Below the pieces are notes generated by a model. It did no database searches. It saw only the letters and a program-made list of their open reading frames with translations, and was not told the origin of the DNA. Shown piece after piece: positions 1 through 16,086 of a stretch of DNA of 47,165 nt; positions within the stretch are counted from its first letter, which is position 1; each line of letters starts with the position of its first letter. Source of the DNA: a virus. Both the position numbers and the translations under genes were made by a program. The stretch lies in IMG/VR virus record IMGVR_UViG_3300037229_000064, positions 1 through 47,165 of that record; one strand, written 5' to 3'.

Positions 1-108
1 TACGTTCAGAAAAAGATTTCTAGGGAAGGAATGAAGCCTCAGCATATAATGGAGAAAATGATTCCAACGATCATCGACAACATCCGCCAGGAGCTGAAAA
101 TAATATGA
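1..108 (+). CDS. C-terminal fragment of head-tail joining protein (gp10-like)
   Basis: The window opens in frame inside a gene whose complete copy lies at 46508-46972. These 35 codons and the TGA are identical to the end of that copy, so this is the overlap of a circular assembly rather than a second gene. The TGA (106-108) overlaps the ATG of the next gene at 105 as ATGA. Confidence 0.9.
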   Translation, partial: YVQKKISREGMKPQHIMEKMIPTIIDNIRQELKII

Positions 109-197
109 AATACATTTTTCTTTTTTTGTTTTTCTGCTCTCAGGCTTTTGCGGTATCTGATATTTTTGGAGTTTTAAGTCAGGGTCAGGCGACGGCT
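1..197. repeat. Left copy of the terminal assembly redundancy
   Basis: Bases 1-123 are identical to 46865-46987, and bases 72-197 are identical to 47040-47165. The left end carries one copy of the 52-bp unit (72-123) that is present three times at the right end. This is the signature of a closed circular genome written out with overlapping ends. A true direct terminal repeat is less likely because the two copies differ in unit number. Confidence 0.9.
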
Positions 198-428
198 ACC
201 ACTAGTGCTTCTCAAATTCTCTCTCAGAATCTAAATAGAAAGTACCTCATCATTCAGAACACTGGGTCCACGACTGTTACGGTCAACCTGGGCGTTGCTC
301 AATCGGGAGGTGCAGGAATCCAGATCATTGCCGGCGGTAACTACGAACCAGTTCATACCCCTACTGACTCTATTTGGATTCAAAGTACCTCGAGCACGGA
401 CGTGATCAACTACATTGAGGGGGAATAG
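105..428 (+). CDS. Small virion-type protein with Sec signal peptide
   Basis: This 107-residue protein begins with a short basic start and a hydrophobic core, ending in a QAFA cleavage-type motif near residue 16, so it looks like a classical Sec signal peptide. The remainder is beta-rich. The stretch around residues 46-56 (YLIIQNTGS) and the later Gly, Pro and Trp positions resemble small phage structural proteins that describe an imputed beta-sandwich; that family link is from memory and unproven. It overlaps the previous stop by ATGA and ends directly against the ATG at 429. It sits between the head-tail joining gene and the tail terminator candidate, where a cytoplasmic virion protein would be expected, so a signal peptide here is odd. 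The function is unknown. Confidence 0.75.
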   Translation: MKYIFLFLFFCSQAFAVSDIFGVLSQGQATATTSASQILSQNLNRKYLIIQNTGSTTVTVNLGVAQSGGAGIQIIAGGNYEPVHTPTDSIWIQSTSSTDVINYIEGE

Positions 429-1565
429 ATGAAATTAATTGCATTTATTTCTTTTCTATTTTGCTTGAATGCACATGCATTCTTGAGCAGTCTTCCCCCT
501 GCTTCCCCACCGGCTGGAACGAATGAACAAATTCAGTTCAATAATAATGGTTCCTTCGGAGGATTCGGTTCCTGGGATGGAACGACCGAAACAGTACCGG
601 GAAATATTGCGGCCACTGGGACTTTCAATCTGCAAGACGGAAACAGTCTTAACTGGAGCGGAGGTTCGCAAATATTAGCGTCTGGTTCGAACCTTATCCT
701 AAACGCAACTAGTTTCGGTGGAGTCTATACCGAGGGAAATACTCTAGATAACGGCTACGGCGGCGCGCAGTTTGGTTTGTGGCTTTTTGACGGCGGAGAT
801 GACCTCTCGGACTCATATGGCTCGTTAACTTCAGGCACAGTTACAGCGACTACTTTTCAGCTCCCCACCGGTGGGAGTGTTTACGACGATGGGGCCGGTG
901 GAGTAATTATAAATGGCAACACTAGTGTCGACAACGTGGGTAACGTCACAATCGGTAATAATCTTTATCTTCCTTATGGTAGCGTTGATTCCTCTACATT
1001 TATTTCGAATAATTATTATCTTACCTCGGGAGGAGGTGTTTACGACGATGGGGCCGGAGGCGTTTACATCCAAGATGAGAACTTTAACAATACTATCCAT
1101 GTTGGTGAAGCGTCATCTCCCGGTGCTCTTGGATTTTTCAATGGAACCCCTGTTGCTCCGCAAACCGGAGATGCTTGCAGCGCACTTCAAAATTACTCAC
1201 TAGTTTCTTCTTGCGGTTATTCTGCTGCTAATATTACCGGCTTCATTAACGCTTCCATTATTACTGGCACGATTAACCCGTCCGTCACCATGACGAGCAA
1301 CACCACGGCAACGGCTACGTTTAATACGTCTAAGAACGATGAAACGATCTACGATACATCTAGCTCTCTCATTACAGCACTCACAATCGCATTGCCATCC
1401 ACGACCCGCTCCGGTCAGATTCTCAGGTACATTTCAAACCGGACGGTGACAACGACAACGGTCACGGGTACTGTCGTCGTCGGCGCATCCCCTACTCTGG
1501 CTGCCAATAGTTCCGTTGCGTGGCAAGCCGTTAATACCAGCGGAAGTTTCGTTCGAATTCAATAG
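429..1565 (+). CDS. Tail-fibre-like protein with Sec signal peptide
   Basis: This 378-residue protein starts with a signal peptide (hydrophobic residues 3-15, AHA at about 15-17). Next comes a motif of the type NEQIQFNNNGSFGG at about residue 32, which is common at the start of phage fibre and appendage proteins. The middle is Gly, Ser, Asn and Thr rich and contains two near-identical YDDGAGGV segments (DNA at about 879 and 1039), as in trimeric fibre repeats. The C-terminal 90 residues are rich in Thr and Val and end in SFVRIQ, like beta-structured fibre tips. It starts immediately after the previous TAG. I infer a trimeric adhesin-like fibre, but the signal peptide implies export from the infected cell or membrane anchoring during assembly. 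Host range factor is the likely role. Confidence 0.7.
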   Translation: MKLIAFISFLFCLNAHAFLSSLPPASPPAGTNEQIQFNNNGSFGGFGSWDGTTETVPGNIAATGTFNLQDGNSLNWSGGSQILASGSNLILNATSFGGVYTEGNTLDNGYGGAQFGLWLFDGGDDLSDSYGSLTSGTVTATTFQLPTGGSVYDDGAGGVIINGNTSVDNVGNVTIGNNLYLPYGSVDSSTFISNNYYLTSGGGVYDDGAGGVYIQDENFNNTIHVGEASSPGALGFFNGTPVAPQTGDACSALQNYSLVSSCGYSAANITGFINASIITGTINPSVTMTSNTTATATFNTSKNDETIYDTSSSLITALTIALPSTTRSGQILRYISNRTVTTTTVTGTVVVGASPTLAANSSVAWQAVNTSGSFVRIQ

Positions 1566-1573
1566 GAGATTTT

Positions 1574-1846
1574 ATGAAATACTTAGCTCTCGTTTTCACA
1601 CTCTTCGCTCTCTCGCTCTCTGCTCTTGCCGCTGGCCCAAACTGCGCCATCCTAAAAGCGAGTCTTTGGAGAGCTAAGGCAAACAACAACTATAACGCCG
1701 TCGTTTGCGCTCAAAACCCAAGCCCTAGCCCGATTCCTTCAGCGCAATGCAAAGCTGCTGCTGATCAGGGCGTGGTTCAGGTTCTCCAAATCCAGCAGGC
1801 GATGGCGCAAGCTTCACCGTCTCCCTGCCCTAGCTCGAGCCAGTAA
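1574..1846 (+). CDS. Small secreted Cys-containing protein
   Basis: This 90-residue product has a clear Sec signal peptide (residues 1-19, ending ALA). The mature part has four cysteines (about residues 24, 45, 59 and 84), which could form two disulfides in the periplasm, and two Ser-Pro-rich stretches. An AGGAG site precedes the ATG by eight bases. The stop overlaps the next ATG as TAATG. It is the third consecutive gene with a signal peptide. I do not recognise the family. Confidence 0.7.
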   Translation: MKYLALVFTLFALSLSALAAGPNCAILKASLWRAKANNNYNAVVCAQNPSPSPIPSAQCKAAADQGVVQVLQIQQAMAQASPSPCPSSSQ

Positions 1847-2478
1847 TGAGCAATCCCACCTCTGATGTAATGGATTCCTGCTTGTCTGCCCTGGCGACGT
1901 ACCTTGCCGGACAGATTAGCGGTCTTACCATTCTCCAGGAGTGGCCGTACGCGAATCAGCAGTTGACCTATCCGTCGCTTACGATCTCGACAAAAGATCC
2001 GAAGCGTACTCCTTCGATGCCGATCCTCGTTTCTCAAACGGCACCTAACGAATCGAACCAGATCACCGCAAACGAAGCGGTGGCTGAGTGGGACGACATC
2101 TTCCAGATGGATCTCTGGACCCGATCAAAAGCGGAGAGAAAAACCATCACCGCTCAAATCCTTGACGCCTTTAACGCCCAGGAGATGGACGCGAGCGGAA
2201 AGAACAAATCGGACGGTCTTTCGCTTCAAATCACTGATCAGTACGGGGAATATGCGCGCTTTGAGATCGAGAACGTCCAGTGCGTGGACGACGAGGCATC
2301 CGCTCAACGTCAAGAGCGTCGCGAAAAAATAACGGTCATTGTGAATTGTCGTGAAATTCGCCAGCGGACGTATTACGCTATGACCAGTATTCAGTTGTAC
2401 GGCCAGGTTGCTAGCAATCAGGACAGTGATGGATTCACTGACGATACGACTGATACCGAAGAGAAAACGATCTCATGA
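1846..2478 (+). CDS. Probable tail terminator / neck protein
   Basis: This 210-residue protein lies immediately before the sheath gene, the usual place for the tail completion or terminator protein of myoviruses. It has a plausible pattern: an N-terminal helix (residues 5-20), strands around a YPSLTISTKD segment, a central DIFQMDLWTRSKAERKTI stretch typical of terminator proteins that assay a strand-helix turn (Q-D-W-x(3)-K), then a strand with REKITVIVNCRE. The family assignment comes from synteny and from this W-T-R/K-x-E pattern; I did not identify a Pfam domain. There is no signal peptide, and the start overlaps the previous stop as TAATG. Confidence 0.6.
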   Translation: MSNPTSDVMDSCLSALATYLAGQISGLTILQEWPYANQQLTYPSLTISTKDPKRTPSMPILVSQTAPNESNQITANEAVAEWDDIFQMDLWTRSKAERKTITAQILDAFNAQEMDASGKNKSDGLSLQITDQYGEYARFEIENVQCVDDEASAQRQERREKITVIVNCREIRQRTYYAMTSIQLYGQVASNQDSDGFTDDTTDTEEKTIS

Positions 2479-2511
2479 GGAGATCTAACATTTCCATGGA
2501 AGGAAAAACCG

Positions 2512-3990
2512 ATGTCCATTCTCAATTCTACGAATCCGACTGACTGGGGCTCGCTTGACGGTATTTATATCGACGAGTCTTCGCCCCCGCCTTCTGTAAC
2601 CGGCGTTCCTGCCAACACGGCGATTCTCGTCGGGCAGTTTGAGCGCGGTTCAAATCAGATTCAGAGCGTCGGATCTGTCGGACAGCTATACCAACTTTAC
2701 GGCAACAACCTGAACTACAGCGGTCTTGTCGCCCTCCAGAACAAACAGTTCGGATTGCTCAAGGTCATTCGCGTGATCGCCGCGAGCGGATCGGCGAATG
2801 CCGCGCTCAGCGTTAAACACAGCTCGTCTCCGGTCGTGATTACGTTCACGGCTCTTTGGGCTGGCGCTTACGGCAACAACCTCCAGGTGACGGTTGCCTC
2901 CGGGTCTACTTCCGGCAGCAAGTACACGATCCACGACGCTAACCCGAATGCGGTTTGGCCCGATGAGATCTACGACAACGTGGACGTTACCGCCGCGGGG
3001 TTCAATCAGGCTGCTCTCAATGCGATCCTGCAGAACTCGAATTTGGTTTCTGCCACCCTGATCACCACGGCCAACAACCCGACGAATGCATCCGCCGCAA
3101 ACATGACTTCAGGTTCAGACGGAACCATAGCCAACACCGACTATCAGACCGCTATCGTGGGTCAGTCTCAGGGCAACCTGGTCGGCAACATCCTGTTTTC
3201 TGATTTTTACGACGGAAGCAACGTCATCGCGGGATACATCCAGACCTCTCTTGCGGCGACGACCGACAAGATGGGAATTATCTGCGGTGCCGCTGGTGAC
3301 TCGGTTTCGACTTCGGTCACGACCGTTGCCAGCTTTCGAGACGTTCAGGGCCGCATGATCTATGCGTACCCGTACGTTTACACCACGATCAACGGACTCA
3401 GTACGCTGGTCAACCCGGCTTCGTTCTACGCGTCTCTACTGAGCCAGATCGCGCCGAACATCGACCCGGCCTACGCGGCCAACGCTCAGTACCTCCAGGG
3501 TATCGAAGCGCTCGACGCGAATCTCCAGCGCTCCGATTACATCAACCTCGAGAACGCCGGTATCTCGGCTTTCGAAGTCGATGCCTCGGTGGGTATCAAG
3601 GTCAAGTCCGGAGTCGTGACTCAGATTGCGAATAGCTCTCTGATCATGGTCTTCCGCCGGCGAATGGCCGACTACATCGTTCAGAGCTTGGCCCAGTACC
3701 TGGTGAACTACCAGAACGCTCCGAACAGCCAGTTGAACCAGAGCACGGTCGGAGCTGCGATTTCCGCCTTCAACCGCGGCCTGGAAACCTCTGGCCTCGT
3801 TCCGAGCGATGCGGAAGTGTCCAGCGGTAAGGCTTCGTTGATCGACGTGACCTCACTGAACACGGATGAATCCGTGGCGTCCGGTTACTTCAAGATCATC
3901 TACAAGCGCCGCATTTACAGCTCGATGCGCTTCATCGTTCTCCAGGCGGAGATCGGCGCGAGCGTGGTGGTTACTGAATCTAGCGGCTAA
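2512..3990 (+). CDS. Contractile tail sheath protein
   Basis: This 492-residue protein is a tail sheath subunit, which wraps the tube and contracts on infection. The N-terminus has the usual sheath opening: GIYIDESSPPPSVTGVPANT followed by ILVGQFERG, then GSVGQLYQLYG and a beta-rich domain. The C-terminal third holds the conserved core (RRRMADYIVQSLAQYL, then the KIIYKRRIYSSMRFIVLQAEIG strand region). The length is normal for Mu-like or P2-like sheaths. The ATG is preceded by GGAAGG. It is followed by the tube gene, as in essentially all myoviruses, which fixes the morphology. Confidence 0.92.
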   Translation: MSILNSTNPTDWGSLDGIYIDESSPPPSVTGVPANTAILVGQFERGSNQIQSVGSVGQLYQLYGNNLNYSGLVALQNKQFGLLKVIRVIAASGSANAALSVKHSSSPVVITFTALWAGAYGNNLQVTVASGSTSGSKYTIHDANPNAVWPDEIYDNVDVTAAGFNQAALNAILQNSNLVSATLITTANNPTNASAANMTSGSDGTIANTDYQTAIVGQSQGNLVGNILFSDFYDGSNVIAGYIQTSLAATTDKMGIICGAAGDSVSTSVTTVASFRDVQGRMIYAYPYVYTTINGLSTLVNPASFYASLLSQIAPNIDPAYAANAQYLQGIEALDANLQRSDYINLENAGISAFEVDASVGIKVKSGVVTQIANSSLIMVFRRRMADYIVQSLAQYLVNYQNAPNSQLNQSTVGAAISAFNRGLETSGLVPSDAEVSSGKASLIDVTSLNTDESVASGYFKIIYKRRIYSSMRFIVLQAEIGASVVVTESSG

Positions 3991-4014
3991 TTTCTCCAAG
4001 GAAGGGGTTGAAGC

Positions 4015-4437
4015 ATGAGTGCATCCATAAGAGGCCACCAGGGCCAGATTAGTTTTTTCCAGAATGGTCAGCAGGTCAATTTCGTCGCCATCAAGAAGGT
4101 GTCCCTTAACCAGGACTCAACTTTCATGCGGTCTTACTACACGGGCCAGCCTGAGCCGGAAGGCGACCAAGCGATCGAAGGATGGTCGGGTAACGTCGAA
4201 GCGGAAGTCAAAGACGCAGGCATCGACCTCTTCATTGACGCCCTGGTGACCAACAACCTCAACGGTATCGGCGTTGCGAGCTACACGTTCGTGACGACTG
4301 AAAACTACGCCGACGGCACGACTCAGAGCTACGTCTACTACGACGTTCAGTTCAAGATGAGCAAAGAGCAAGCCGGCCTGCAAGACAAAATGACCAAGCG
4401 TCTCGACTTCCAGGCTTCGGGGCGTCAGCCTCTGTAA
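4015..4437 (+). CDS. Tail tube protein
   Basis: This 140-residue protein directly follows the sheath, as the inner tube subunit does in myoviruses. It begins ASIRGHQGQISFFQNGQQV and has the alternating strand pattern and GWSGNVEAEVKDAG turn seen in tube proteins (P2 FII or Mu gpM type). AAGGGG precedes the ATG. It should be a very abundant product, and the GC-rich hairpin at 4455-4483 lies just past its stop. Confidence 0.85.
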   Translation: MSASIRGHQGQISFFQNGQQVNFVAIKKVSLNQDSTFMRSYYTGQPEPEGDQAIEGWSGNVEAEVKDAGIDLFIDALVTNNLNGIGVASYTFVTTENYADGTTQSYVYYDVQFKMSKEQAGLQDKMTKRLDFQASGRQPL

Positions 4438-4454
4438 GCTTCCTGGCAGGCCCC

Positions 4455-4483
4455 GGGGCGCCCCTGCGGAAACCAGGCGCCCC
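4455..4483 (+). terminator. GC-rich hairpin after tube gene, no U-tract
   Basis: GGGGCGCC at 4455-4462 pairs perfectly with GGCGCCCC at 4476-4483, leaving a 13-nt loop. No run of T follows, so intrinsic termination would be weak. It may be an mRNA 3'-end stabiliser or partial attenuator between the abundant tube protein and the low-abundance chaperone. Confidence 0.6.
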
Positions 4484-4516
4484 ACTTAAACCCCACGGCT
4501 CAGGAGGCCGTTACTC

Positions 4517-4864
4517 ATGTCCAATCCCATCCAAGTCATTCAAGTCACGCTGTCGTCGAAGAAGGTCGTTGTCCTTCACCAGATGAAGATCTCTCACTCG
4601 GAGACGGCCGCTCAAATGGCCGCACCCAAGTCCAACGGCGACCGCAACGTGCTCCAGTTCTGTATGCAGAGTGTGCTGCTCAAGCTCCTGCTCTGGAAGA
4701 TCGACGGCAAAGAGATCGACCCGATCCAGCGTGAAAAGTTGGACGAACTTTTTACGGTCCCCGAATACACTCAGCTCCTCAAGGTGATCGGAAAGGTTTC
4801 TGGTGGCGATGAGTCGGAAAAGGAGCCGGAAGTGGCCTTTGTGGCCGCAACGACCGGAGCGTAA
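4517..4864 (+). CDS. Tail assembly chaperone, short form
   Basis: This 115-residue protein lies between the tube and tape-measure genes, the invariant place of tail assembly chaperones (lambda G, P2 E). It is acidic at the C-terminus and has no membrane segment. CAGGAGG precedes the ATG. Its role, from the family, is to coat the tape measure while the tube polymerises. The last codons carry the signal for a -1 shift to the longer form described separately. Confidence 0.75.
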   Translation: MSNPIQVIQVTLSSKKVVVLHQMKISHSETAAQMAAPKSNGDRNVLQFCMQSVLLKLLLWKIDGKEIDPIQREKLDELFTVPEYTQLLKVIGKVSGGDESEKEPEVAFVAATTGA

Positions 4865-5010
4865 ATTTGTGGCGGCAGATCGCTTGGATTTGCCGCTACA
4901 CATCTCTGACGCCTGCGATTATACTGGACATGACCCCGTGGCAATATGACGCTTTCACTTCGCAGTTGAAGGACATCATTTCCGCAGAATCTGGGAGGCC
5001 GTCCACTTGA
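4517..5010 (+). CDS. Tail assembly chaperone, -1 frameshifted long form
   Basis: The -1 frame is open from 4813 to a TGA at 5008-5010 and, past the stop of the short form, reads LWRQIAWICRYTSLTPAI, then a DMTPWQYDAF segment. This is a typical chaperone extension (W-x-x-I-x-x-x-x-x-L-T-P, then a T-P-W/R-Q motif). It has no start codon or ribosome site of its own, so frameshifting is the natural explanation. The shift must occur between 4813 and 4864. The best slip site is GGAAAAG at 4816-4822, close to the lambda GGGAAAG, with Glu and Lys codons in the zero frame. The long-form stop overlaps the TTG start of the tape measure as TTGA. Confidence 0.75.
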
Positions 5011-6827
5011 GTTTAGAGCAAGCCTTCGAAGTCGCAACCGAGTTTCGCTTTGACGTGGGTCAGGCGATCCTCAACACGGATACACTGAAAGGTGCGGTCG
5101 ATGATCTTTCGAAGGCTTCGGGATCTGCTCTCGGCTCTCTTAATTACCTCGCTAGCGGTCTTATTGCTCACTTGGGCTTCGGGTCTGGTGGTCTTCTTTC
5201 TATCCTAGGAAAGGCAGTCCAGATCTCCGAAGCCTTCAACGAGTCATCGCTTTCCTTCGCCAACAACATCAGCTCCAACATGCAGACGCTTACCGGTACG
5301 ATCGACAACTTCAACGATCGTCTCGGTACGTCTCAGATGCTGATGGGGAACATTTCTCGCGAGGCGATCAAGTTCGGGATCGACACCACGCAGCTCAGTC
5401 ACATCACCCAGCTCCTCGCAACTCCGCTCGCGAACCGGGGCAAGCTGGGCTCGAATTACCAGGGCGCCATCTCCATGGGTCGCAACCTCTCGCTGGCCTC
5501 TGAAGCCGTCGGCCTGAATCCGATGATGAGCGGCGAAATGCTCTCGCGCGCGATTACGGATCACATGGCGATTCACGGCGCTCTCTTTGCACGCTTGGTG
5601 AACACCCAGGCTTTCAAGTCCCAGCATATCGCGACTCAGCCGCAGCTCATGAATATGAATACGGATCGGAAGATCGACTTGCTCAGCAAGGCGCTCACCC
5701 AGCTCGCCGGCGACGCGGATTGGATCGCGGCCCGCATGATGAACCTGGGCACGCAGTTCATTATCCTGAAGGATCAGATCTCGGTGGTACTGAAGCCGAT
5801 CGGTGATGCGATCGTGAAACCGCTGGTGAAGATGATGAGCCAGATCAACGGCTATCTTACGCAACACGGCGAAGAGATTGGCAAGAACATCGGCAAGCTG
5901 ATCGGGAATATCTTCGAAGACCCCAAGAATTTGTTCGTCAATCTGATGCAGTTGAAGCACCTGAAAACGGACTTCCAGCGCGCGCTCGACTGGTCCGGCG
6001 TGATCGTGATGGCGACTTGGATCAAGATGGGCCTCGAGAAGATCGGGATCGTCTTCAACGGCGGATTGATCCGTCGAGCCTTCGCTGGACTGTTCGATGG
6101 ATTCGTTTACGCGCTTCCCATAATCTGGAAGACGATCACGACGGTCGCCAAGTTCATCACGCCGGCGATCGGTGAGTTCATTGGTGCGTTCGCCCCGCTC
6201 CTCTTCTTCTTCCAAATTATCAGCCGAGCTCGTGCCATTGCCAAGGTCAACGACATCGAAAATTTACTGAACCTCATGCCCAAGCTTTCCGCCATTTTCG
6301 TGAAGATCAAGACCGCGGTCGAAAACATTATGATGCCGCTCTCGATGGCGATCGACTTCTGGGCCAACCTCCTGGCGCCACTCTTTCAGACCTCGACCTG
6401 GCTGAACATCCTGGTCCCCGTTCTCGATTCGTTCGCAGACATCCTGGGAATCTTGGGCACCGTAACCGTGTACGCGATGGCAGGCCTCTCGGGACTGGTC
6501 AACGTGATCATCGGATTCGTCGAAGACATTATGCACATGAAGAACCCTTTTGGGAACGTCATGGGCAATCTCAAGGACGGGTACAACGATTTCCTCGAGC
6601 GCAATGCCGCGCGACTGGGTAAGGCGAGTGATAGTGCTGCCAACTACCACGTCGAGAACAACAACCACATCGAAGCGCGTTTCGACATGCGCGAACAGAT
6701 GGAGCCAGACCGTATCGCCTTCGCCGTGACGACTCACTTGAAGAAGCTCGCCCTGGACGCCCCTCAAGGCGCTGGAGCCTCTTTGGCGTCGGCTTTTGCC
6801 CGGCCTAGAATTGCAGGTGCCAATTGA
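5007..6827 (+). CDS. Tape measure protein
   Basis: This 606-residue protein follows the frameshifted chaperone. It is alpha-helical, with hydrophobic segments at roughly residues 370-410 and 475-510, and it is the longest open frame between tube and hub. In the family it spans the tube and sets tail length; at about 1.5 angstrom per residue, a tail near 90 nm is predicted. It starts with TTG at 5007, which GGGAGG precedes at good distance and which overlaps the chaperone long-form TGA. Basic N- and C-termini are usual. The central hydrophobic parts could help form a membrane pore at DNA entry. Confidence 0.8.
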   Translation: MSLEQAFEVATEFRFDVGQAILNTDTLKGAVDDLSKASGSALGSLNYLASGLIAHLGFGSGGLLSILGKAVQISEAFNESSLSFANNISSNMQTLTGTIDNFNDRLGTSQMLMGNISREAIKFGIDTTQLSHITQLLATPLANRGKLGSNYQGAISMGRNLSLASEAVGLNPMMSGEMLSRAITDHMAIHGALFARLVNTQAFKSQHIATQPQLMNMNTDRKIDLLSKALTQLAGDADWIAARMMNLGTQFIILKDQISVVLKPIGDAIVKPLVKMMSQINGYLTQHGEEIGKNIGKLIGNIFEDPKNLFVNLMQLKHLKTDFQRALDWSGVIVMATWIKMGLEKIGIVFNGGLIRRAFAGLFDGFVYALPIIWKTITTVAKFITPAIGEFIGAFAPLLFFFQIISRARAIAKVNDIENLLNLMPKLSAIFVKIKTAVENIMMPLSMAIDFWANLLAPLFQTSTWLNILVPVLDSFADILGILGTVTVYAMAGLSGLVNVIIGFVEDIMHMKNPFGNVMGNLKDGYNDFLERNAARLGKASDSAANYHVENNNHIEARFDMREQMEPDRIAFAVTTHLKKLALDAPQGAGASLASAFARPRIAGAN

Positions 6828-8026
6828 GCGTATTTGACACCAGTGCGAACGCCGGTAGCTCGATTCTCGACCCGATCGCGGCGACCCTCAAGAATCCGTT
6901 TTCGACGACCGTTAAAAACAACGGGAAACGTGCGCAGGACTTCCCGGGTGGCTTCCAGATCCAGGAGTACGAGAACGGCAAGCCGCTGACCGGGACGCAG
7001 AACTACGTCCAGCTCGTGGGCAACATGATGCCCATGCAACCGTTCGCCTGGGATGGTGAACAGCGCCTGGTGAAGGAGTATTACCCCGGCAATCCCGAAG
7101 CCGCGGTGCAAGTGCTCGGCGCCAAGGAAGGCGAAGTCACGATCAAGGGCCGATTCAAGGACAAGCACTATCAAGACCCTTCCTATTACGGAGCATCGTA
7201 CCAGTACACGCTCCTGATCGATGGCATCAGAAAGCGCGGTAACCTGGTCCACTTCTGGATGAACGGAACCGCCGGCTCCTGGTCTCGCTGGGGCTTCATC
7301 GAGAAGGTTAGCTTCAAGATGAATAAGCTTTCTTGGATCGACTACGAGATTACATTTTTCGTCGTGAGCGATGTGCATCCGATCAACAACTACTTCGCAG
7401 CTCCCGAGAAACAGGCTCCTAGCGCGATCAACAATAACCTGATTGCCGCGGTGGCTAGCTTTAATTCGTCCTACTCTGATGTCCCTACCTCGATGCCTCA
7501 GAGTATTTCCGGTCTGCTCAATAACCTGATCTCGAGCGTGGCCAAGAACATGAACCTGGTGACGAACTTCGTCGGAACGGTGATCAATACCGCTTCTTCG
7601 ATCGAATCGAGCGCCATGCGCGCACTGGGCCTCATCAAGAACGCCCAGGCGACGATTGCGAACTTCCGGCTCCAGCTCGACGGGATGACCCATACTTTCA
7701 ACTCGCTGAGCTCGCAGGGAAGTGCCGCTGGGCAGACGCGAGACACCTACACCAATCTCCAGTACCTCTTCGAGACGGCGAGCGCTACCGTGAGCCTTTC
7801 GACCTACCTCGCTCAGATGAAGACCCAGTTCCAGGCACTCGCTCTCACAGTTCCGAAGGCCCGTTACCGCGTACAGACAGGCGATACGCTCCAAAACATC
7901 AGCATTAAGTTCTATGGCGTTTCCGACTACTGGACCGACATATTTGACCATAATCAGCTCACCTCGACGGATCTCCAGGGCGGCGACTGGACCGATAAGC
8001 CCATCCTGGAAATACCGAATGTATGA
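6824..8026 (+). CDS. Baseplate/tail protein with C-terminal LysM domain
   Basis: This 400-residue protein has an N-terminal beta-rich part (residues 1-190) like tail-hub and DNA-circularisation-type proteins. A helical middle (about 200-340) follows, and a C-terminal LysM domain from about residue 345 (RYRVQTGDTLQNISIKFYG, ending ILEIPNV). In Mu-like and T4-like baseplates a LysM protein (gp53-type) connects hub and wedge. It uses a TTG start inside a TTGA overlap with the tape measure, and overlaps the next gene by ATGA. LysM also binds peptidoglycan, but here assembly is more likely. Confidence 0.75.
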   Translation: MSVFDTSANAGSSILDPIAATLKNPFSTTVKNNGKRAQDFPGGFQIQEYENGKPLTGTQNYVQLVGNMMPMQPFAWDGEQRLVKEYYPGNPEAAVQVLGAKEGEVTIKGRFKDKHYQDPSYYGASYQYTLLIDGIRKRGNLVHFWMNGTAGSWSRWGFIEKVSFKMNKLSWIDYEITFFVVSDVHPINNYFAAPEKQAPSAINNNLIAAVASFNSSYSDVPTSMPQSISGLLNNLISSVAKNMNLVTNFVGTVINTASSIESSAMRALGLIKNAQATIANFRLQLDGMTHTFNSLSSQGSAAGQTRDTYTNLQYLFETASATVSLSTYLAQMKTQFQALALTVPKARYRVQTGDTLQNISIKFYGVSDYWTDIFDHNQLTSTDLQGGDWTDKPILEIPNV

Positions 8027-9570
8027 GTTTCTACTACCCGCAAGCCGTCGTTCAGCTCCGAATTTACCCGGAAGATTACACGCTCACGAGCGCGGTTGAC
8101 CCGACCAAGTTTACGATCATCAATTGCCAAGCTCGAGATGTCACGGTCAACCGGAACGACTACAAGACCGCGGACACTTTTTCAATCGAGATCGATTACA
8201 AGAACTTCCCTTTTGATCCTCGCATTATCCGCTCGTGCGGCGTGGTGATCTACATGCAGGACATGGGAAAGCTGGGAGACGCGCTCCAGCCAGGTGCCAG
8301 CACAAAGATCAACCCGGACGTGAGCAATGCTGTCTTCCTTGGCTTTGCAGACGAGGAGAACATCGAATTTAACGACACTCGTCGCAGTGTGAAGCTCAAC
8401 GGTCGAGACTCGACTTGTTTGCTGATCGATCAGAAGTACGCTCAGAACAAAACGATCTTCCCGAATCAGACTCTCGACGTTGCAATAAAGACACTCATCT
8501 CTGTAATTCCTGCTCTTGTGGATCTAAAGATCGTGAACAACACCGATAGCCCTAACCGTGACTTCCCCATCCTCTCGAGCTTTTACTTCGGATTCGGAGA
8601 CAAACTTGCCGGTGGAATGAATACGGGCGGTGGTATCCGCGAGAATTACTGGGAGATCATCCAGGAGATGGTGAATCAGTGCGGAATGATCTGCTATATG
8701 GGCATGACCGTGATCAACGCCAAGCTTTACCCGGCCCTGATCATCACGACGCCAAAGAACCAGGCCCAGACGCTCGATCAGTCCACCCTGGGGCAGACCA
8801 CGAAGCCGATCGACGACATCAAGATTATTTACGGCGTCAACGTGAAGAACCTCCAGCTCAAGCGCAAGCTGGGCCGGCTCAAGAACATCAATCTCCAGGT
8901 GCGCGCGCGCGTCGGGAAGCAGGTCCTGATTGCCAAGATCCCCGAGGAGGCGACTGTCGCCTGGGGTACGGCGTTCGGATTCACTCCGACCGCTCCCGGC
9001 GTTAACCCGAACGGCGCGCCCACGAACTTCCCGGCAGTGACGGTCCCGGTGATCAAGCCTGACGGGTCGCTCGACACGACCCAGAACCACGTCGCGCCCT
9101 ACATCACATTTCCGTACCCTGGAAATAAGATCAGCACTCACGAGCAGCTTGTTCAGATCGGACAGACTGCATATGAGCAGTACAGCCTTCAGCAGCTCGA
9201 AGGAAGCTTTGAGACTTTCGAGATGCTTGGCCGCGGGACTACTTCCGACCCAGGGGTGAACAACAAGGCGTCATTCACCACCTACGACTTGACTCAGATC
9301 AAGAAGGGCCAAACGATTTGCCTCGAGATCGACCCTGACGACATGGATGGGATCTCTCGATTTAATACGGTTCAGCAAAAGACCGATTACCTGATCCAGA
9401 AAAACTACGATCCTAAAGTAGCCTCACTGCTCGCGCAGACGATCAACAAGATGTCTCCGCGTTTCCAGATCAAGGACTACTCGATGAACATCAACCAGGA
9501 TAGCGGCTTCAAGTTGAGCGTCCGCTTCCAGAACATCCTGAACCTCACTCAAAAGGGGATCAGCAAATGA
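8023..9570 (+). CDS. Baseplate hub protein (gpD/gp27-like)
   Basis: This 515-residue protein sits between the LysM protein and the spike, where the trimeric hub (Mu gp44, P2 D, T4 gp27) is found. It has the expected beta-rich opening, an NGRDSTCLLIDQ segment near residue 125 followed by a helix and the PALVDLKIV strand (hub proteins carry an SYVD/RDxTxxLID-like segment), and a C-terminal domain of LVQIGQTAYEQYSLQQLEGS type with the G-x-T/G beta ends. It overlaps the LysM gene by ATGA and the spike gene by ATGA. The family is inferred from order and motif. Confidence 0.75.
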   Translation: MSFYYPQAVVQLRIYPEDYTLTSAVDPTKFTIINCQARDVTVNRNDYKTADTFSIEIDYKNFPFDPRIIRSCGVVIYMQDMGKLGDALQPGASTKINPDVSNAVFLGFADEENIEFNDTRRSVKLNGRDSTCLLIDQKYAQNKTIFPNQTLDVAIKTLISVIPALVDLKIVNNTDSPNRDFPILSSFYFGFGDKLAGGMNTGGGIRENYWEIIQEMVNQCGMICYMGMTVINAKLYPALIITTPKNQAQTLDQSTLGQTTKPIDDIKIIYGVNVKNLQLKRKLGRLKNINLQVRARVGKQVLIAKIPEEATVAWGTAFGFTPTAPGVNPNGAPTNFPAVTVPVIKPDGSLDTTQNHVAPYITFPYPGNKISTHEQLVQIGQTAYEQYSLQQLEGSFETFEMLGRGTTSDPGVNNKASFTTYDLTQIKKGQTICLEIDPDDMDGISRFNTVQQKTDYLIQKNYDPKVASLLAQTINKMSPRFQIKDYSMNINQDSGFKLSVRFQNILNLTQKGISK

Positions 9571-10193
9571 ACGACCTGGAGTTTTTGAGGGATCTTTTCA
9601 AAGACCCTCGACTGCACATCGGGATCGGACTCGTCACCGACCTGGGGTTATCCCAGGACGGCTCGATACTGCGCGCCAGCGTAATGCTTCAGCCAGAGAA
9701 TCGTGAGATCGTTGCCGAGGTTACTTTCAGTGACGTGAACTCCGTGACCTTCCCTGAAATCCAGGATCTGGTTCTGGTCCTGTTCGTGGACGGACACCCT
9801 GATGAAGCGTTTGTGGTCGCAAGGATCAACAACTCCGACGAGCCGATTCCGGTCTTCGCCCAGGCCGGTAACACGATGATCGCCCCACGTCAGGGTAAAA
9901 AAGTGGGAATTGGGCGATCGACCGTGACTCCGACCGACCCCATGGTGCTTGGAACCGAGCTCATGAACTACCTGGTAGCCCTGGAGAGCCGGATCGAGGC
10001 GATCATCAACGCCCTGAATACCGTGCCTACGACGATCTGCACGGCCCCAGGCGTGCTGGGCGAGGTCAACCCGGTCCTGGTGACGGATCTGGATACGGTT
10101 CTCTCTGGCCTCCAGAGCGACAAGGCCACTTACTTGACCGCGGCATCGACCAATATTTTGTCGCAAATCGCGTTTACTGAAAGGGGTGTCTGA
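9567..10193 (+). CDS. Baseplate spike / gpV-like OB-fold protein
   Basis: This 208-residue protein follows the hub by an ATGA overlap. Its N-terminal 100 residues look like the OB-fold of Mu gp45 or P2 V, the membrane-piercing spike (VMLQPENREIVAEVTFSD, then PEIQDLVLVLFVDGHPDEAFVVARI). The rest is a helix and a short tail with no obvious beta-helix repeats, so the tip may be provided by another protein such as the 77-residue product next to it. Confidence 0.65.
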   Translation: MNDLEFLRDLFKDPRLHIGIGLVTDLGLSQDGSILRASVMLQPENREIVAEVTFSDVNSVTFPEIQDLVLVLFVDGHPDEAFVVARINNSDEPIPVFAQAGNTMIAPRQGKKVGIGRSTVTPTDPMVLGTELMNYLVALESRIEAIINALNTVPTTICTAPGVLGEVNPVLVTDLDTVLSGLQSDKATYLTAASTNILSQIAFTERGV

Positions 10194-10426
10194 TGGCTAT
10201 GACCGCCGCAGGGATGCAGGCCGCTATCGTAGCGCAGTTGAACACCGAATTCGGTACGCCGGCGGACTCGACGGCCCAATCCAAGTTCGCCTTGGCTGTG
10301 GCGACCGCTGTGGTAGCATATATCCAGGCCAACGCAGTAGTCGCAACCACGGATGTCGGAACGGTCACGAGCGGCGTAGCTTCGGGATCGCCAACGGCAG
10401 GAACAGGGACGGGGACAGTCTCATAA
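10193..10426 (+). CDS. Small baseplate-associated protein
   Basis: This 77-residue product starts at the ATG overlapping the previous stop (TGATG). It has an N-terminal amphipathic helical half (residues 1-45) and a Val, Thr and Gly-rich tail that would suit a spike-tip or beta-structured extension. Small genes of this type (AQLNxxFGTP opening) occur next to phage spike genes, but I do not know a function. The next gene starts at the base after the TAA. Confidence 0.55.
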   Translation: MAMTAAGMQAAIVAQLNTEFGTPADSTAQSKFALAVATAVVAYIQANAVVATTDVGTVTSGVASGSPTAGTGTGTVS

Positions 10427-10825
10427 ATGCCGCTTAACAGCATAGTCGATACTCTCAAGACTGACCTCTCCTTCTTCGCTGACTCCAGCGGGGACATCGG
10501 ATATTTGAACGGTCTCCAGAATCTTCAGCGCGCGCTCTTCCGTCGGCTGGTCACCGTACCCGGAACGCTTGTCCACAAGCCCCAATACGGAATCGGCGTC
10601 GGTCTTTTCCAGAACGCGCCGAACAGTTTTTCGATCCAGCAGAAGCTAGCCGCGCTGATCACGGACCAGTTTCCGCAAGATCCCCGCGTTCAATCCGTTT
10701 CGAGCGTTTCCATCACCTCCGAAGATGGTACTCCCGAAATGACGAAGATCGTGGTTACACTGGTGCCTGTCGGGTACACGGAGCAGCCGATGACCTTCAT
10801 GCCCTTTAGCCGAGGTAATTCATGA
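10427..10825 (+). CDS. Baseplate wedge protein, GPW/gp25-like
   Basis: This 132-residue protein has the gp25/W lysozyme-like fold hallmarks: NLQRALFRRLVTVPGTLVHK then PQYGIGV near residues 43-60, followed by an I(T)DQFPQDPRVQSV helix-turn-strand motif. In T4 and Mu this is the conserved inner wedge protein that triggers sheath contraction. It overlaps the J-like gene by ATGA. Confidence 0.85.
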   Translation: MPLNSIVDTLKTDLSFFADSSGDIGYLNGLQNLQRALFRRLVTVPGTLVHKPQYGIGVGLFQNAPNSFSIQQKLAALITDQFPQDPRVQSVSSVSITSEDGTPEMTKIVVTLVPVGYTEQPMTFMPFSRGNS

Positions 10826-12459
10826 CCCTGCCACTCTCGTCGCAGCAGACCTTCTACAATCTCTTCATCTCGATTTTGCAGGACTATGCTCCGCAGCTCA
10901 CGGATACGCTCGACGGTTCCGACATCGACGCCCTGGCCGGTGTGTGCTCGCTCTTTGGCGTGGAAATTCAGCGTCAGACGATCCTCTACTTCAACAAGAC
11001 ATTCATTGATCTCGCGAACGGACCCGAGATCACGGGCGGTCCGGACGATCTCCAGACGCTCGTCGTTGACCATTACGGCGACGCGTTCGAGCGCCCGGGT
11101 GCAGTGGCCGCGGTGGATACCGTATTCTTTTCTCGCCCCAACAACTCAGCCGGCGCCAAGGTCATTCTCGCTGGGAGCATCGCGGCCACGCAGCCCGACC
11201 CGAACGGCAACGTCCAAACCTACACGACGGACAGCCAGGTCACCCTGACCGCGGCCGGTGTCGTGACGTTCACGATCAGCTCGGCCAGTGTCACGACCGG
11301 AGCCGTCTACCAGGATGCCAACGGGAACAACTACACGGCAACCCAGACCATCAGCTCGCAGACGAGCCTGCAAACGAGCGGGACGACCAATCCGCCGGCG
11401 AGCGGTACCCTGACCAAAATCAGCGGAACCGGCGCAAGCACATTGACCTTTAGTTCGGTGATGGCGCCCGACTGTAGAGTCACCGTGAATGTGGAAGCTG
11501 TAGTTGCTGGTTCTGCCGGCAATGCATCCGCCGGCTCGATCAACGTGATTCAAACCGCGCTTCTAGATTCCTCGATCGTGGTAACGAACGCCGGCAACCA
11601 GACCGGTGAAGACGCCCAGGACGACGCCACTTACCGCGAGACGATACGAAACCTCATAGTTGCCCTCCGTGCCGCGACTGCCGCCGCTATCCAGGCTGCG
11701 GCCCTTGCAGTTCCCGGCGTGGTATCCGCAACGCCGGTGCTCACGGAATCACCGGTTGTTTTCTGGAATCCTGCGACCAACTTGCCACTGAACGCGGAAG
11801 TGGGCGGACTCTACGAATACTTCCTGATCCCGTTTGCCGTTCTCTATGTCGCCCAGGCGGGCGGTCCAGCCTCTGCGGCTCTGGTTGCGGAAGTGCAAGA
11901 AGCCATCGCGCCTTACGAAGCCTTCGGCGTGAACATCACTGTAGCCGCGGCAACCACCGTGAACGTCAACTGGAGCGCCGGACTCACCCTGAACCCGGAA
12001 GGTCCGAACTTCGCGACGTTCTCCTCGAACACGGCTCAGATCGTGGCAACGATGACGAACTACATCGCGACTCTGCCGACCGGGACCAGCTTCATTCGAT
12101 ACGCGGCCGCCTATTACATGCTTACGCAGTACGGGCCTGCCGGTACCAACGACCTGATCGGAAATACGACGTTCACCGTTACCTCGGCGAATGCTACGGC
12201 CGCGGCCGTCTACGAAGACGTGAACGGCCAGCAGTACACGGTTCTGAGTACGATCGCCGGCGGAACGACTCTCTCCACGTCGAGCGGGATGCTGCCTCCG
12301 ACCTCGAGCGGAACCTTGACTAAGGTCAGCGGCACGGGCGACACGACGATCACCTACTCGGGTGTCACCACGACCGCATTTGTGACCTCGGTTCCGACGG
12401 CCGATGTCTCAATCAGTTCGACCGAAAACGCGATTCCTGGAACCATCCAAACGGTGTAA
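10822..12459 (+). CDS. Baseplate J-like wedge protein (Mu gp47-like)
   Basis: This 545-residue protein directly follows the gp25-like gene, as J follows W in P2. The N-terminal 80 residues and the core after about 240 (NQTGEDAQDDATYRETIR; then AAIQAAALAVPGVVSATPV) carry the typical J pattern of G-x-x-x-E-x-D-x-x-Y/F-R-x-R and a helix before PGV. Two inserts of about 70 residues (at roughly residues 140-210 and 445-510) are similar to each other (each has an AVYxDxNGxxYT segment, then SGTLTKxSGTGxxTxTxS), so this phage has duplicated a small beta-rich domain within J. That is unusual. Its role is to connect the wedge to the fibres. Confidence 0.85.
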   Translation: MTLPLSSQQTFYNLFISILQDYAPQLTDTLDGSDIDALAGVCSLFGVEIQRQTILYFNKTFIDLANGPEITGGPDDLQTLVVDHYGDAFERPGAVAAVDTVFFSRPNNSAGAKVILAGSIAATQPDPNGNVQTYTTDSQVTLTAAGVVTFTISSASVTTGAVYQDANGNNYTATQTISSQTSLQTSGTTNPPASGTLTKISGTGASTLTFSSVMAPDCRVTVNVEAVVAGSAGNASAGSINVIQTALLDSSIVVTNAGNQTGEDAQDDATYRETIRNLIVALRAATAAAIQAAALAVPGVVSATPVLTESPVVFWNPATNLPLNAEVGGLYEYFLIPFAVLYVAQAGGPASAALVAEVQEAIAPYEAFGVNITVAAATTVNVNWSAGLTLNPEGPNFATFSSNTAQIVATMTNYIATLPTGTSFIRYAAAYYMLTQYGPAGTNDLIGNTTFTVTSANATAAAVYEDVNGQQYTVLSTIAGGTTLSTSSGMLPPTSSGTLTKVSGTGDTTITYSGVTTTAFVTSVPTADVSISSTENAIPGTIQTV

Positions 12460-12462
12460 TGA

Positions 12463-13143
12463 ATGGCTCAAACCCAAGCACAGTGGTACGCGAAGATCTC
12501 GAAGTGGGTGCCCGCCGGATTCTTTCTGGATCAGGGCGGAACCAACGACGAATCTGAAGCGCTCACGGAAGCAGTCCTGCAAGCGTTTGCCGGGATCTTC
12601 GCTCAGTGCGATCAGGATCTAACGGATCAGCAGGCCGCTACTTTTATTCTCCAGTCAAGCGCGCCGATCATCGACCTCCTGGGCGACGAGCGAAATGTTC
12701 CGCGGCCAGAGGGGTACACCGATGCGGAGTACGCGCCGGTGATTCAAAATTCTCTTTTCCTCAGCGTAGGTTCCGCGCAGCTTGCGGCGAACATCAACGC
12801 GGTGCTTAACAATGGCCCCGTGTTCATGATCAACAACCAGGAGTACGGATATTTTGACGATGCGGACGTGTCGGAAACTCCGGGCTTTCCCTATTATGAC
12901 GACTACTATACTATTTGGCTTGACCTGCGTAAGTGGTACAATTGGTGGACCTGCATCATTCCGGTTCAGACCGGAGGAAACCTGGCTTCGATCATGACCG
13001 CGATCGTGACCGCGATTCAAAATAACATGGCCCTAGGCACCACTTACGATATCCGAATGCACGTCCAGACCAACATCACTGACGAATCAGGAAATCAGAT
13101 GACGGACGAATCAGGAAATACCCTCATTGGAGAACAGACGTAA
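12463..13143 (+). CDS. Tail protein I-like / wedge tip protein
   Basis: This 226-residue protein follows J and precedes the fibres, the place of P2 I or Mu gp48, which attaches fibres. The first 65 residues are helical with Trp (QWYAKISKWVPAGFF). The centre has PIIDLLGDERNVPRPEG and the C-terminus ends in two repeats of TDESGN (residues about 204-220), a short tail reminiscent of adhesive repeats. It overlaps the next gene by TAATG. The assignment is by position and shape. Confidence 0.6.
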   Translation: MAQTQAQWYAKISKWVPAGFFLDQGGTNDESEALTEAVLQAFAGIFAQCDQDLTDQQAATFILQSSAPIIDLLGDERNVPRPEGYTDAEYAPVIQNSLFLSVGSAQLAANINAVLNNGPVFMINNQEYGYFDDADVSETPGFPYYDDYYTIWLDLRKWYNWWTCIIPVQTGGNLASIMTAIVTAIQNNMALGTTYDIRMHVQTNITDESGNQMTDESGNTLIGEQT

Positions 13144-14156
13144 TGTTTAAGAAACTTTTAATCGGCTTCTTCATGTTCTTGTCGGCGGACGCGTTCGCCA
13201 CGGGGACCACCAAGATCTCGCAGTTTCCGATCGGGACCGCCTCCGCGTGTAACGCAAACGACGCGTTCGCTTATTTCAGTTACGGTAATTCGACGGACCA
13301 GACGATTATCGAAAGTGACCTTCCGAATCTGCCGTCACTTCAAGCGACGTTCCTGACCAAATCGAGCGCGGCTTCGACTTATCTGACCCAATCGAGCGCA
13401 TCGTCTACCTACCTGACTCAGTCGAGCGCTGCCTCGACCTATGAGACGCAGACCGCGGCTTCCGCGCTTGCCCCGAAGGCAAGTCCGACGTTTACTGGCA
13501 CGGTTACCGCGCCGGCTCTCACTCTTTCGACCACCCCCCTGGCAGTAGGATCAGGCGGCGTCGGCGCGGCAACACTTCCGTCGGCCAATCTTCTCCTCGG
13601 GAATGGGACAAGCGCTGTAACGGGCCTCCCCCCTGGAGGGAGCGGGAACATCCCGACCTCAAACGGCTCCACCTGGACGAGCGCAGCTCCTGCTCAGCAG
13701 GTTCCGTCTGGTACAGTTATAATGTTCGCTGGAACGAGCTGTCCAACGGCTTACCTGGCGACTGACGGAACTCTTTATTCAACCACTACCTACGCCACTC
13801 TATATGCAGCCATTGGAACTACCTACGGCAGCGGTTCTGGTACCTTTGGAGTACCGAACACCAAAGGCGTTTTCATCCGTGGCGCTGGATCTCAGACTAT
13901 CGGTGGCATCTCCTATTCAGGTACGCAGGGCACCACTCAGGGCGACCAGATGCAGGGTCATTTACATCAACAAACAACGGGAGGTACAGGTGGGAGTCTA
14001 ACCCAGACCTCAAATTTCACAACGGGGAACTCCGGTCAGACGGCTACCTCCTCCAACACTACCGGACCCGTCAGTGATGGAACGAACGGAACGCCGCGCA
14101 CGGGGACGCAGACCTACCCAGCAAACATAACTTTGCTCTACTGCATAAAAACCTGA
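13143..14156 (+). CDS. Tail fibre with signal peptide and tail-collar domain
   Basis: This 337-residue protein begins with a Sec signal peptide (residues 1-19, ending AFA). Next come three decapeptide-like repeats of SSAASTYLTQ type (about residues 76-105), a coiled or triple-stranded stalk, and a C-terminal phage tail collar domain (Pfam 07484 type) starting near PSGTVIMFAGTSCPTAYL and including GTFGVPNTKGVFIRGAG and a GDQMQGHLHQ segment with the HxH metal-binding motif typical of collar/receptor-binding tips. A receptor-binding fibre is likely. The signal peptide is again unexpected for a virion protein. It overlaps the previous stop as TAATG. Confidence 0.85.
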   Translation: MFKKLLIGFFMFLSADAFATGTTKISQFPIGTASACNANDAFAYFSYGNSTDQTIIESDLPNLPSLQATFLTKSSAASTYLTQSSASSTYLTQSSAASTYETQTAASALAPKASPTFTGTVTAPALTLSTTPLAVGSGGVGAATLPSANLLLGNGTSAVTGLPPGGSGNIPTSNGSTWTSAAPAQQVPSGTVIMFAGTSCPTAYLATDGTLYSTTTYATLYAAIGTTYGSGSGTFGVPNTKGVFIRGAGSQTIGGISYSGTQGTTQGDQMQGHLHQQTTGGTGGSLTQTSNFTTGNSGQTATSSNTTGPVSDGTNGTPRTGTQTYPANITLLYCIKT

Positions 14157-14166
14157 AGGGGAACCG

Positions 14167-15045
14167 ATGAGACAGGTCTACATCAATCAGTACGAGAAGG
14201 TTGGATCGAACGACATCAACAGCTTGCAGTTAGCTGTTCATAAATCTTTGTTCGACGACACACTCTACCCTTTTCTCCAAAAGCAGAACGGCGTACTGGC
14301 CGCCTCATTCGCCCCGACTTACGTCAGCGCCCTGGCCGGCTCTCTCGCTGCCGGTACCGGCTTTTTCTACGATTCGACCCAGACCGGACTCAACCCGAAC
14401 TACCGAATGATCAACGCGCAGAGCTCTATTGCTCTCGCATTTGCCGCGGCGAACACCTCAGACCGTATCGACCTGGTATGCTTGGCGCCGAATTTCGCCG
14501 TGCAGTCCACGGCGAGCCGTTACGTCAAGACAGGCGGAACCGGCCCCATCACTTTGCAAACCGTAAACAAGATTTACCAAGACACCTACACGCTCGACAT
14601 CGTGGCTGGCACCCCTGGTGTTTCCCCGTCGGCCCCGGCTCTACCCTCGGGGTATCTGGCGATTGCCCAGGCCTATATCCACGCCAACACGGGAATGGCG
14701 AGCCAGGCCGACATAACGGACTTGCGGAACCAACTTTCACAGGCATCAAGCAGCGTCGGACTTGTTATTTCAGGGACGACCACGATCAACTCGCAGGTCA
14801 ATCTCCTTTTCTGCAATACCGCAAGCGCTGCATTCCCAGAAGCCTTGCCTGCGTCGGCATCTTTTCCATCGAGACGAATCACCTTCGTCAATACTGGGAT
14901 AGGATCAGGGAACAATGTGACCATAGGAGTCGCAACGGGCGACTATCTTCACGGAACATTAAACGGAACTTATGCACTTACGCCGGGCGATTCGATCACT
15001 TTCGCCTCGGACGGGAATGGGAACTGGTACCAAATCCATGATTAA
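14167..15045 (+). CDS. Tail-fibre or short-fibre protein
   Basis: This 292-residue protein has an N-terminal helical part (residues 1-40), then GSLAAGTGFFYDS near 58 and a DLRNQ coil around 185. The C-terminal portion is beta-rich and ends NGNWYQIHD, a pattern common at fibre tips. There is no signal peptide, in contrast to the genes either side. A GGGG Shine-Dalgarno precedes the ATG. The stop overlaps the next gene's start. Short side fibre or baseplate adaptor is likely. Confidence 0.6.
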   Translation: MRQVYINQYEKVGSNDINSLQLAVHKSLFDDTLYPFLQKQNGVLAASFAPTYVSALAGSLAAGTGFFYDSTQTGLNPNYRMINAQSSIALAFAAANTSDRIDLVCLAPNFAVQSTASRYVKTGGTGPITLQTVNKIYQDTYTLDIVAGTPGVSPSAPALPSGYLAIAQAYIHANTGMASQADITDLRNQLSQASSSVGLVISGTTTINSQVNLLFCNTASAAFPEALPASASFPSRRITFVNTGIGSGNNVTIGVATGDYLHGTLNGTYALTPGDSITFASDGNGNWYQIHD

Positions 15046-15841
15046 GCTCATCGCACTTTGTCTTCTTTTCTCTGTCTCCGCTTTCGCGCGAACCGCGAAT
15101 CAAGTCTGGATTATGCCCCCTAGCGGGAATCTCCCGAATTGGGGACAGGTATTGCTTACCTCAAACGCCGCGGTTACGGGCGAATCGGCTGGCGCCTGTT
15201 ACGCGACGAGTACGACCTCGGGGCTTTCGTTTGGGGCCTTGCCCAATAGCGACGGCGGAACTGGCGTTAACTCGAGCAGCTCGACCGGGATTCCACACGT
15301 CGCGTCCGGCACCTGGACCTTCTCATCTGTGGTCAGTGCGGATATTGCCTCCGCTACGGTGACGGGATCGAATATCGCATCGGCGACCATTACAGGGTCA
15401 AATATAGCGAGTCAAACAATTACCCAAGGATTACTTGCGGCACGGGCTACCGGAACCAGTGTTGCTGCCGGTGGAGTAGGGACATCAGGGAACATCACCA
15501 CAGCGACCACTTCGGCTACTAGCTTTTCTGAACTCACTGGAGACGTTCCTGTCACCATTGTTACGACAGGGCGGCCGGTAATGATTTTGATCCAGTTTAT
15601 AAGCACTTCAGGGAGTATCAACGTTAGTGGAGGATTTGGATTTATTCAAATTTATAGAGGCGCAAGCGCTACAGGTCTGATTACCGGGGTAACCTCTTCT
15701 TCTGCTCCTACTGTTTCGCCTATTGTTGGAGTAGACTTTCCTTCTGCGGGTACTTACACATACAAAATTTATGGACAAACAAACAGCGGGTCTAACACTC
15801 TTTCGTTAAATGAATTTGAATTGGTTGTATTTGAACTTTAA
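15038..15841 (+). CDS. Fibre-like protein with Sec signal peptide
   Basis: I start this at ATG 15038, giving 267 residues that open with a signal peptide (MIKLIALCLLFSVSAFA, cleavage after about 17). An in-frame upstream start at 14972 would bury the signal peptide and lie inside the previous gene. The middle has a NSDGGTGVNSSSSTG segment and three near repeats of the form ASATVTGSNI, typical of triple-stranded stalks. The C-terminal 90 residues are beta-rich. It is the fifth signal-peptide protein of the tail region. Confidence 0.7.
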   Translation: MIKLIALCLLFSVSAFARTANQVWIMPPSGNLPNWGQVLLTSNAAVTGESAGACYATSTTSGLSFGALPNSDGGTGVNSSSSTGIPHVASGTWTFSSVVSADIASATVTGSNIASATITGSNIASQTITQGLLAARATGTSVAAGGVGTSGNITTATTSATSFSELTGDVPVTIVTTGRPVMILIQFISTSGSINVSGGFGFIQIYRGASATGLITGVTSSSAPTVSPIVGVDFPSAGTYTYKIYGQTNSGSNTLSLNEFELVVFEL

Positions 15842-15855: not shown

Positions 15856-16086
15856 ATGGAACCTGTTGAAGTCAGACTTGCAAGAATCGAAGAAGGAATT
15901 GTGAGCGTTCACGGAAAACTGGACGCCTATCATCTTGCTGCGGCGGCAAGGATCACTCCTCTCGAGGTCGAGCAAAGGGCTCAGGGCACTAGGCTCACTA
16001 TTCTTGACCGTGACAAATGGTGGCTTTTCAGTTTGGCCGGCGCGGCTTTCACGACCGGACTTTACGCTCTTTTCGGGGCTCACTAA
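15856..16086 (+). CDS. Holin candidate (XhlA-like)
   Basis: This 76-residue protein has a short N-terminal coiled-coil-like part, a central RLTILDRDKWWL segment and one C-terminal transmembrane helix (about residues 54-73). That arrangement resembles XhlA-type holin partners. AAGGAGG lies eight bases upstream. It is followed by the glycosyltransferase and the muramidase-like gene, so lysis is the obvious context. It could instead be an anchor protein. Confidence 0.6.
   Translation: MEPVEVRLARIEEGIVSVHGKLDAYHLAAAARITPLEVEQRAQGTRLTILDRDKWWLFSLAGAAFTTGLYALFGAH

Follow-up and report, generated by a model that had tools for sequence, protein, structure and literature searches.

Five genes of the virus represented by IMG/VR record IMGVR_UViG_3300037229_000064, a contractile-tail phage (myovirus) of about 47 kb, most likely encode phage fibre-type proteins fitted with Sec signal peptides (SPs). 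Tail fibres determine the host cell of a phage and, by common assumption, stay in the cytoplasm up to lysis. Judged from the deduced amino acid sequences, export of the five proteins is quite probable, while their subsequent fate, for which an action on receptors outside the virion is tentatively favoured, is less certain. The whole record of 47,165 bases (hereafter the window) was analysed with our own gene calls, several of the comparisons being built on few sequences; genes are designated by their start positions.

Signal peptides and fibre features

SPs were called with a rule of our own, not SignalP, that requires a basic n-region, an uncharged hydrophobic core and small residues at positions −3 and −1. 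The open reading frames (ORFs) 105, 429, 1574, 13143 and 15038 are all present where the first-pass annotation had placed them, and their SP scores (10.6–11.7) are the top five among 61 likely genes, the sole further gene scoring at least 8 being the lipoprotein-like ORF 18849 (10.3). With residue-shuffled proteins, a mean of 0.048 genes per genome reached a score of at least 10.5 (maximum 2; 500 rounds), and the rule was passed at none of 1514 internal positions and by none of the 26 ORFs that encode fibres or collars in other phages and have a complete 5′ end. Among these 26 controls, an ORF of L002 bears a hydrophobic leader without basic residue (MLFLLLSLFLAQPAQA), which fails the rule and was counted as probable by eye. 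Hence, the five Sec-type SPs proposed at first pass are well borne out, and 14167 indeed lacks one, as had been claimed. For 13143, the rule slightly prefers cleavage at ADA/FA, the previously assigned AFA site (AFA/TG) being equally plausible. Moreover, the ATG of 105 overlaps the stop of the preceding gene after circle closure, 429 starts directly after a TAG, the start of 13143 overlaps a TAA (TAATG) and that of 15038 the stop of 14167 (ATGA), so that the leaders are unlikely to be annotation errors.

Of the five proteins, 13143 alone has a Pfam match, which is to the Collar domain (60.7 bits versus a cut-off of 24, E 1.3e-16) and corresponds to the tail collar domain previously ascribed to one of them; an S74 chaperone was not matched by Pfam in any of the five. 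A sequence search against solved structures returned the T4 short tail fibre as the only match of 13143, and nothing useful for 429, 15038 and gp68 of Bdellovibrio phage phi1422. After cleavage, 13143 would start with TGTTKISQ and its homologue 18357 in the related phage G003 with DQKISQ, and the KISQ motif is found a few residues from the initial methionine in ordinary fibres (phi1422 gp67, L003, L004 and L008). The position of KISQ directly after the SP thus indicates that the latter has been placed ahead of an intact fibre start.

Cysteine is enriched in the mature SP proteins at 0.95% versus 0.53% in the other structural proteins of these phages (Fisher p 0.003; per protein p 0.016). Besides, the collar tip of 13143 clusters (support 99/98) with both tips of L002 and with its closest non-phage kin, a pair of secreted Bdellovibrionota collar proteins that stand alone; one of this pair lies on a long contig and is surrounded by ordinary bacterial genes. 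L002 holds this collar tip twice at 61% identity, one copy belonging to an SP-less fibre with typical tail-fibre N-terminus, and the leader-bearing copy has gained two new cysteines and lost the usual one. Both the enrichment and the changes in L002 are compatible with an oxidising destination. That a collar cysteine pair marks every exported collar is ruled out by G297 34610 and several secreted chromosomal collars.

Coordinates and properties of the five SP-bearing genes and their neighbours in the window; a slash marks the predicted cleavage site.
Feature	Coordinates	Strand	Length	SP / mature start	Remarks
SP protein 1	105..428	+	107 aa	MKYIFLFLFFCSQAFA / V	small domain; heads the trio
SP protein 2	429..1565	+	378 aa	MKLIAFISFLFCLNAHA / F	fibre; an unrelated phage has a nearly identical C-terminal tip
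SP protein 3	1574..1846	+	90 aa	MKYLALVFTLFALSLSALA / A	mature form of 71 residues with 4 Cys; end rich in Pro/Ser
SP protein 4	13143..14156	+	337 aa	MFKKLLIGFFMFLSADAFA / TGTTKISQ	KISQ-type fibre N-terminus; C-terminal collar domain with Cys pair
SP protein 5	15038..15841	+	267 aa	MIKLIALCLLFSVSAFA / RTANQ	fibre-slot protein
Comparison gene without SP	14167..15045	+			all four related phages have a homologue; probably a baseplate or receptor-binding protein of the virion
Conserved baseplate-region protein	12463..13143	+			precedes the fibre slot
Conserved head-tail gene	46508..46972	+			upstream of 105 on the closed circle; its stop overlaps the 105 start
Conserved tail-completion-type gene	1846..2478	+			downstream of the trio; in G001 directly follows the 46508 homologue, without trio

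With pLDDT values of 32 for 429 (from an alignment of two rows) and 39 for 15038 (from its sequence alone), the predicted structures were too poor to be used. Single-protein searches of viral contigs gave no relatives of 105 or 15038, and the tip of 429 had no match in 291 Bdellovibrionota genomes or annotated phages. The lipoprotein-like ORF mentioned above (18849-19265, leader LLLEGC) overlaps ORF 18485-18907; the two look like a two-component spanin, of which the 18849 product is probably the outer-membrane part.

Genomic context and recurrence in other phages

The window encodes, among others, sheath, baseplate, terminase, portal and capsid proteins as well as a helicase and a primase, identifying it as a contractile-tail phage, while none of the genes scanned was recognised as an integrase or repressor. 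The two ends share sequence, bases 55-114 being found again at 46919 and bases 112-197 at 47080, and the window is therefore most likely one circular, essentially complete genome. Within the stretch 46880-47165, where the contig end repeats the start, a unit of about 52 bases stands in three tandem copies, which probably arose during assembly where the circle closes. As the contig closes into a circle, the trio 105/429/1574 lies at the head-tail junction and not beside the fibres, which refines the tail-region location assigned at first pass to all five genes; 13143 and 15038 occupy fibre slots.

A sheath search retrieved three related phages (G001, G003 and G004), sharing with the window virion genes in the same order at mostly 45–80% identity. 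In the slot after 14167, G001 has an SP protein (8462-9751, MKNFILIALSFLTLTANA) and G003 an SP-bearing collar fibre (21171-21998, MKSLILLFFALSSFALA). In the slot before 14167, G003 carries the SP-bearing homologue of 13143 (18357-20162, MMKKILLALTILFSFGAIA / DQKISQ). In G004, the sequence stops too early for the fibre slots to be assessed. The trio is missing in G001, where its flanking genes adjoin each other. In G003, the slot of the trio is taken by a gene (L041 6125-8158) that joins the counterpart of 1846 to a long N-terminal extension, which may include a lectin-like region. Holin-like proteins with several membrane segments and an SP-like leader are encoded in G003 (22844-23362 on the reverse complement of L045-L047) and G001 (L036, 10625-11128).

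A corresponding trio is present in G297 (L096), a phage with structural genes different from those of the window and with a fibre tip nearly identical to that of 429. Overall, 429 and the G297 fibre (L096 2842-4077) are 43% identical, with far higher identity in the tip. The fibre gene is preceded by an SP gene (2259-2834) in the same order as 105 and followed by another SP gene (4088-4480) in the place of 1574 and with the same kind of Pro/Ser-rich end, both only weakly similar in sequence to their counterparts. Here, the trio sits between helicase-like and nuclease-like genes, among replication genes (helicase, nuclease, polymerase-type) and away from the virion genes. This location, together with its absence from the corresponding place in G001, suggests that the trio is an accessory module. 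G297 shows SP-like leaders on two more fibre-type proteins, 29235 and 34610, and in the former the leader precedes another typical fibre N-terminus (NLDKPQDGSTTWG).

In two unrelated viral contigs with unassigned host (L102 4791-9157 and L103 4575-7403), genes for fibre-type proteins with SPs likewise occur in runs, suggesting that the trait is wider than the phages of Bdellovibrio. The proposition that SP-bearing fibres are unique to Bdellovibrionota phages was accordingly not kept.

Host group and relation to known systems

The host group of the phage is most likely Bdellovibrionota, as suggested, among other evidence, by its replication genes. The primase is 46% identical to that of phi1422 (NC_019525; host Bdellovibrio bacteriovorus) over 98% of its length, the next best match being 34%, and the helicase 47% (next best 36%). 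The structural genes gave no match to phi1422 of the kind found for the replication genes. Like the window, phi1422 encodes SP proteins in its tail-fibre region, gp68 and gp75, which stand beside the SP-less ordinary fibre gp67. However, these are annotated as hypothetical proteins and are not demonstrably homologous to the window's five (15038 versus gp75, E 0.02 in a two-sequence comparison), and the structural genes differ. Among the genes tested of three phi1422 relatives (Aeromonas phage 56, Pectobacterium phage ZF40 and Vibrio phage CP-T1), only those of lysis or lipoprotein type have SP-like starts, and no SP fibre was seen.

A search of 291 Bdellovibrionota genomes, as had been proposed at first pass, revealed relatives of the 13143 fibre in 20 of them, mostly related to its collar and many with SP. 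Short proteins of about 220-290 aa consisting of SP, short linker and collar (L063-L067, L071, L074, L082, L086, L087 and L090) are, as predicted from their composition, secreted relatives of phage fibre tips. When the gp68-related fibre of L110 was used as query, matches in phage-like regions of five Bdellovibrionota genomes were obtained. In one of these five, G131, a prophage-like contig (contig 71) carries genes resembling those for integrase, terminase and portal, and an SP fibre follows an SP-less fibre-type gene; G131 may be a metagenome-assembled genome into which this contig could have been binned wrongly. The homologous prophage fibres of L116, L117 and L120 have no SP, so that a general occurrence of SP fibres in Bdellovibrionota phages was discarded as well; a further homologue, in L118, appears broken or incompletely read. 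Taken together with L102 and L103, SPs on fibres are neither universal nor exclusive to Bdellovibrionota phages. A capsid-profile search for prophages found none in the genome collection or the 291 Bdellovibrionota genomes, an outcome that tells nothing about a phage in which no lysogeny genes were recognised.

The predator B. bacteriovorus displays fibre-like mosaic adhesive trimer (MAT) proteins with SPs, which are encoded chromosomally and have a beta-rich domain of about 130 aa directly after the SP (PMC10769870). The window's proteins resemble MATs in being phage-fibre-like and SP-bearing, and some long SP-bearing fibres of Bdellovibrionota also have collar domains. Taking as query L068 235-624, a domain located behind the SP of long Bdellovibrionota fibres and equated with the published N-terminal domain by position and length, six places were found in B. 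bacteriovorus G005 but none in the window, G001, G003, G297 and phi1422. As far as this query can tell, membership in the MAT family was therefore rejected. Hence, the link to Bdellovibrio drawn at first pass is supported by the phi1422 replication genes and SP proteins, the secreted collar kin and the SP fibre of G131, but not in the sense that the five proteins are MAT adhesins.

Ordinary collar fibres (Pfam PF07484; PHROG 1858/523; T4 short tail fibre) share the C-terminal collar with 13143, whereas the members examined have no SP. The predicted SPs argue against a cytoplasmic assembly before lysis as in these ordinary fibres. Phage proteins exported to the envelope offer an analogy of role only: T5 Llp, which blocks a phage receptor, is a lipoprotein. 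Lambda Lom, also a phage-encoded exported envelope protein (PMC12309495), is a beta-barrel, and neither shares the fibre architecture of the window's five. On exported phage fibres, nothing relevant was found in the open-access literature searched, which is no proof of novelty. Weak glycosyltransferase matches of GT9 and GT2 type, below the cut-offs, were obtained for 16017-17129 and 29707-30516, and a role in host-surface or virion glycosylation is possible.

Possible fates of the putatively exported fibres

The explanation favoured overall, with a likelihood slightly short of even, is that the exported fibres act on receptors outside the virion. The SP proteins would be made together with the structural genes, pass the Sec translocon and then be cleaved. 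The mature proteins would form trimers on folding in the oxidising periplasm, disulfides being made in some of them, and would then, outside the cytoplasm, engage the surface receptors that the virion also uses. The most likely benefit would be receptor occupancy, by which other phages as well as the own progeny may be kept off the infected cell and its debris. This off-virion action is favoured since SP-less fibres are encoded beside SP-bearing ones in phi1422 and L002 and the trio appears to be a movable accessory. Several points weigh against it. The SP calls come from a rule-based predictor and export is predicted from sequence. An apparent start for virion attachment, which an off-virion role would not need, is retained in 13143 as well as in G003 18357, and an SP-less fibre-like protein was not recognised among the G297 structural genes examined. 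Furthermore, the collar cysteine pair is absent from the SP-bearing collar of G297 and the closest secreted chromosomal kin, and a soluble periplasmic fibre would still have to reach the surface receptors.

Mounting of the fibres on virions at lysis is a close rival, possible albeit doubtful. In this case, the periplasm, or the closed remnant of the prey in a bdelloplast, would hold the exported and cleaved fibres until they join the baseplates of released particles at lysis. This agrees with KISQ being near the new N-terminus of 13143 and G003 18357, as in ordinary fibres, with the leader ahead of the typical fibre N-terminus in G297 29235, with the usual fibre slot after the baseplate genes being occupied by 13143 and with no SP-less fibre-like protein having been found in G297. 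Besides, completed T4 particles can acquire their tail fibres extracellularly. On the other hand, we know of no precedent for virion assembly in two compartments, and both the ordinary SP-less fibres accompanying the SP-bearing ones in phi1422 and L002 and the trio lying away from the structural genes in G297 speak against it. Rather unlikely is a scheme in which capsid and tail are cytoplasmic, Sec-exported disulfide-bonded fibres are mounted at lysis and fibre genes pass between unrelated phages as an SP cassette.

In view of the predator's fibre-like MAT proteins (PMC10769870) and the tip kinship with secreted Bdellovibrionota collar proteins, the fibres might also be phage-encoded adhesins displayed on the Bdellovibrionota cell that alter prey handling as MAT proteins do. 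This is improbable, as the presumed MAT N-terminal domain is absent and all five genes lie inside the structural gene cluster of the window, which together with the lack of recognised lysogeny genes makes a long-lived surface role unlikely. Still less probable is that the leaders are uncleaved membrane anchors or incidental hydrophobic starts without role in export, as the rule-based calls and the failing L002 leader might suggest, given five such genes in one genome versus the number expected by shuffling, the recurrence in several unrelated phages with A-x-A type sites and the cysteine enrichment of the mature proteins.

If off-virion action or mounting at lysis is true, the recurrent, mobile fibres with export signals would mean that phages use their tips off the virion, for receptor blocking or debris coating, or finish virions outside the cytoplasm. 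The SP-bearing fibres also suggest a route along which genes may pass between phage fibres and the fibre-like proteins that predatory bacteria secrete. With phi1422, a cultured Bdellovibrio phage is available in which the question of exported fibres is directly testable.

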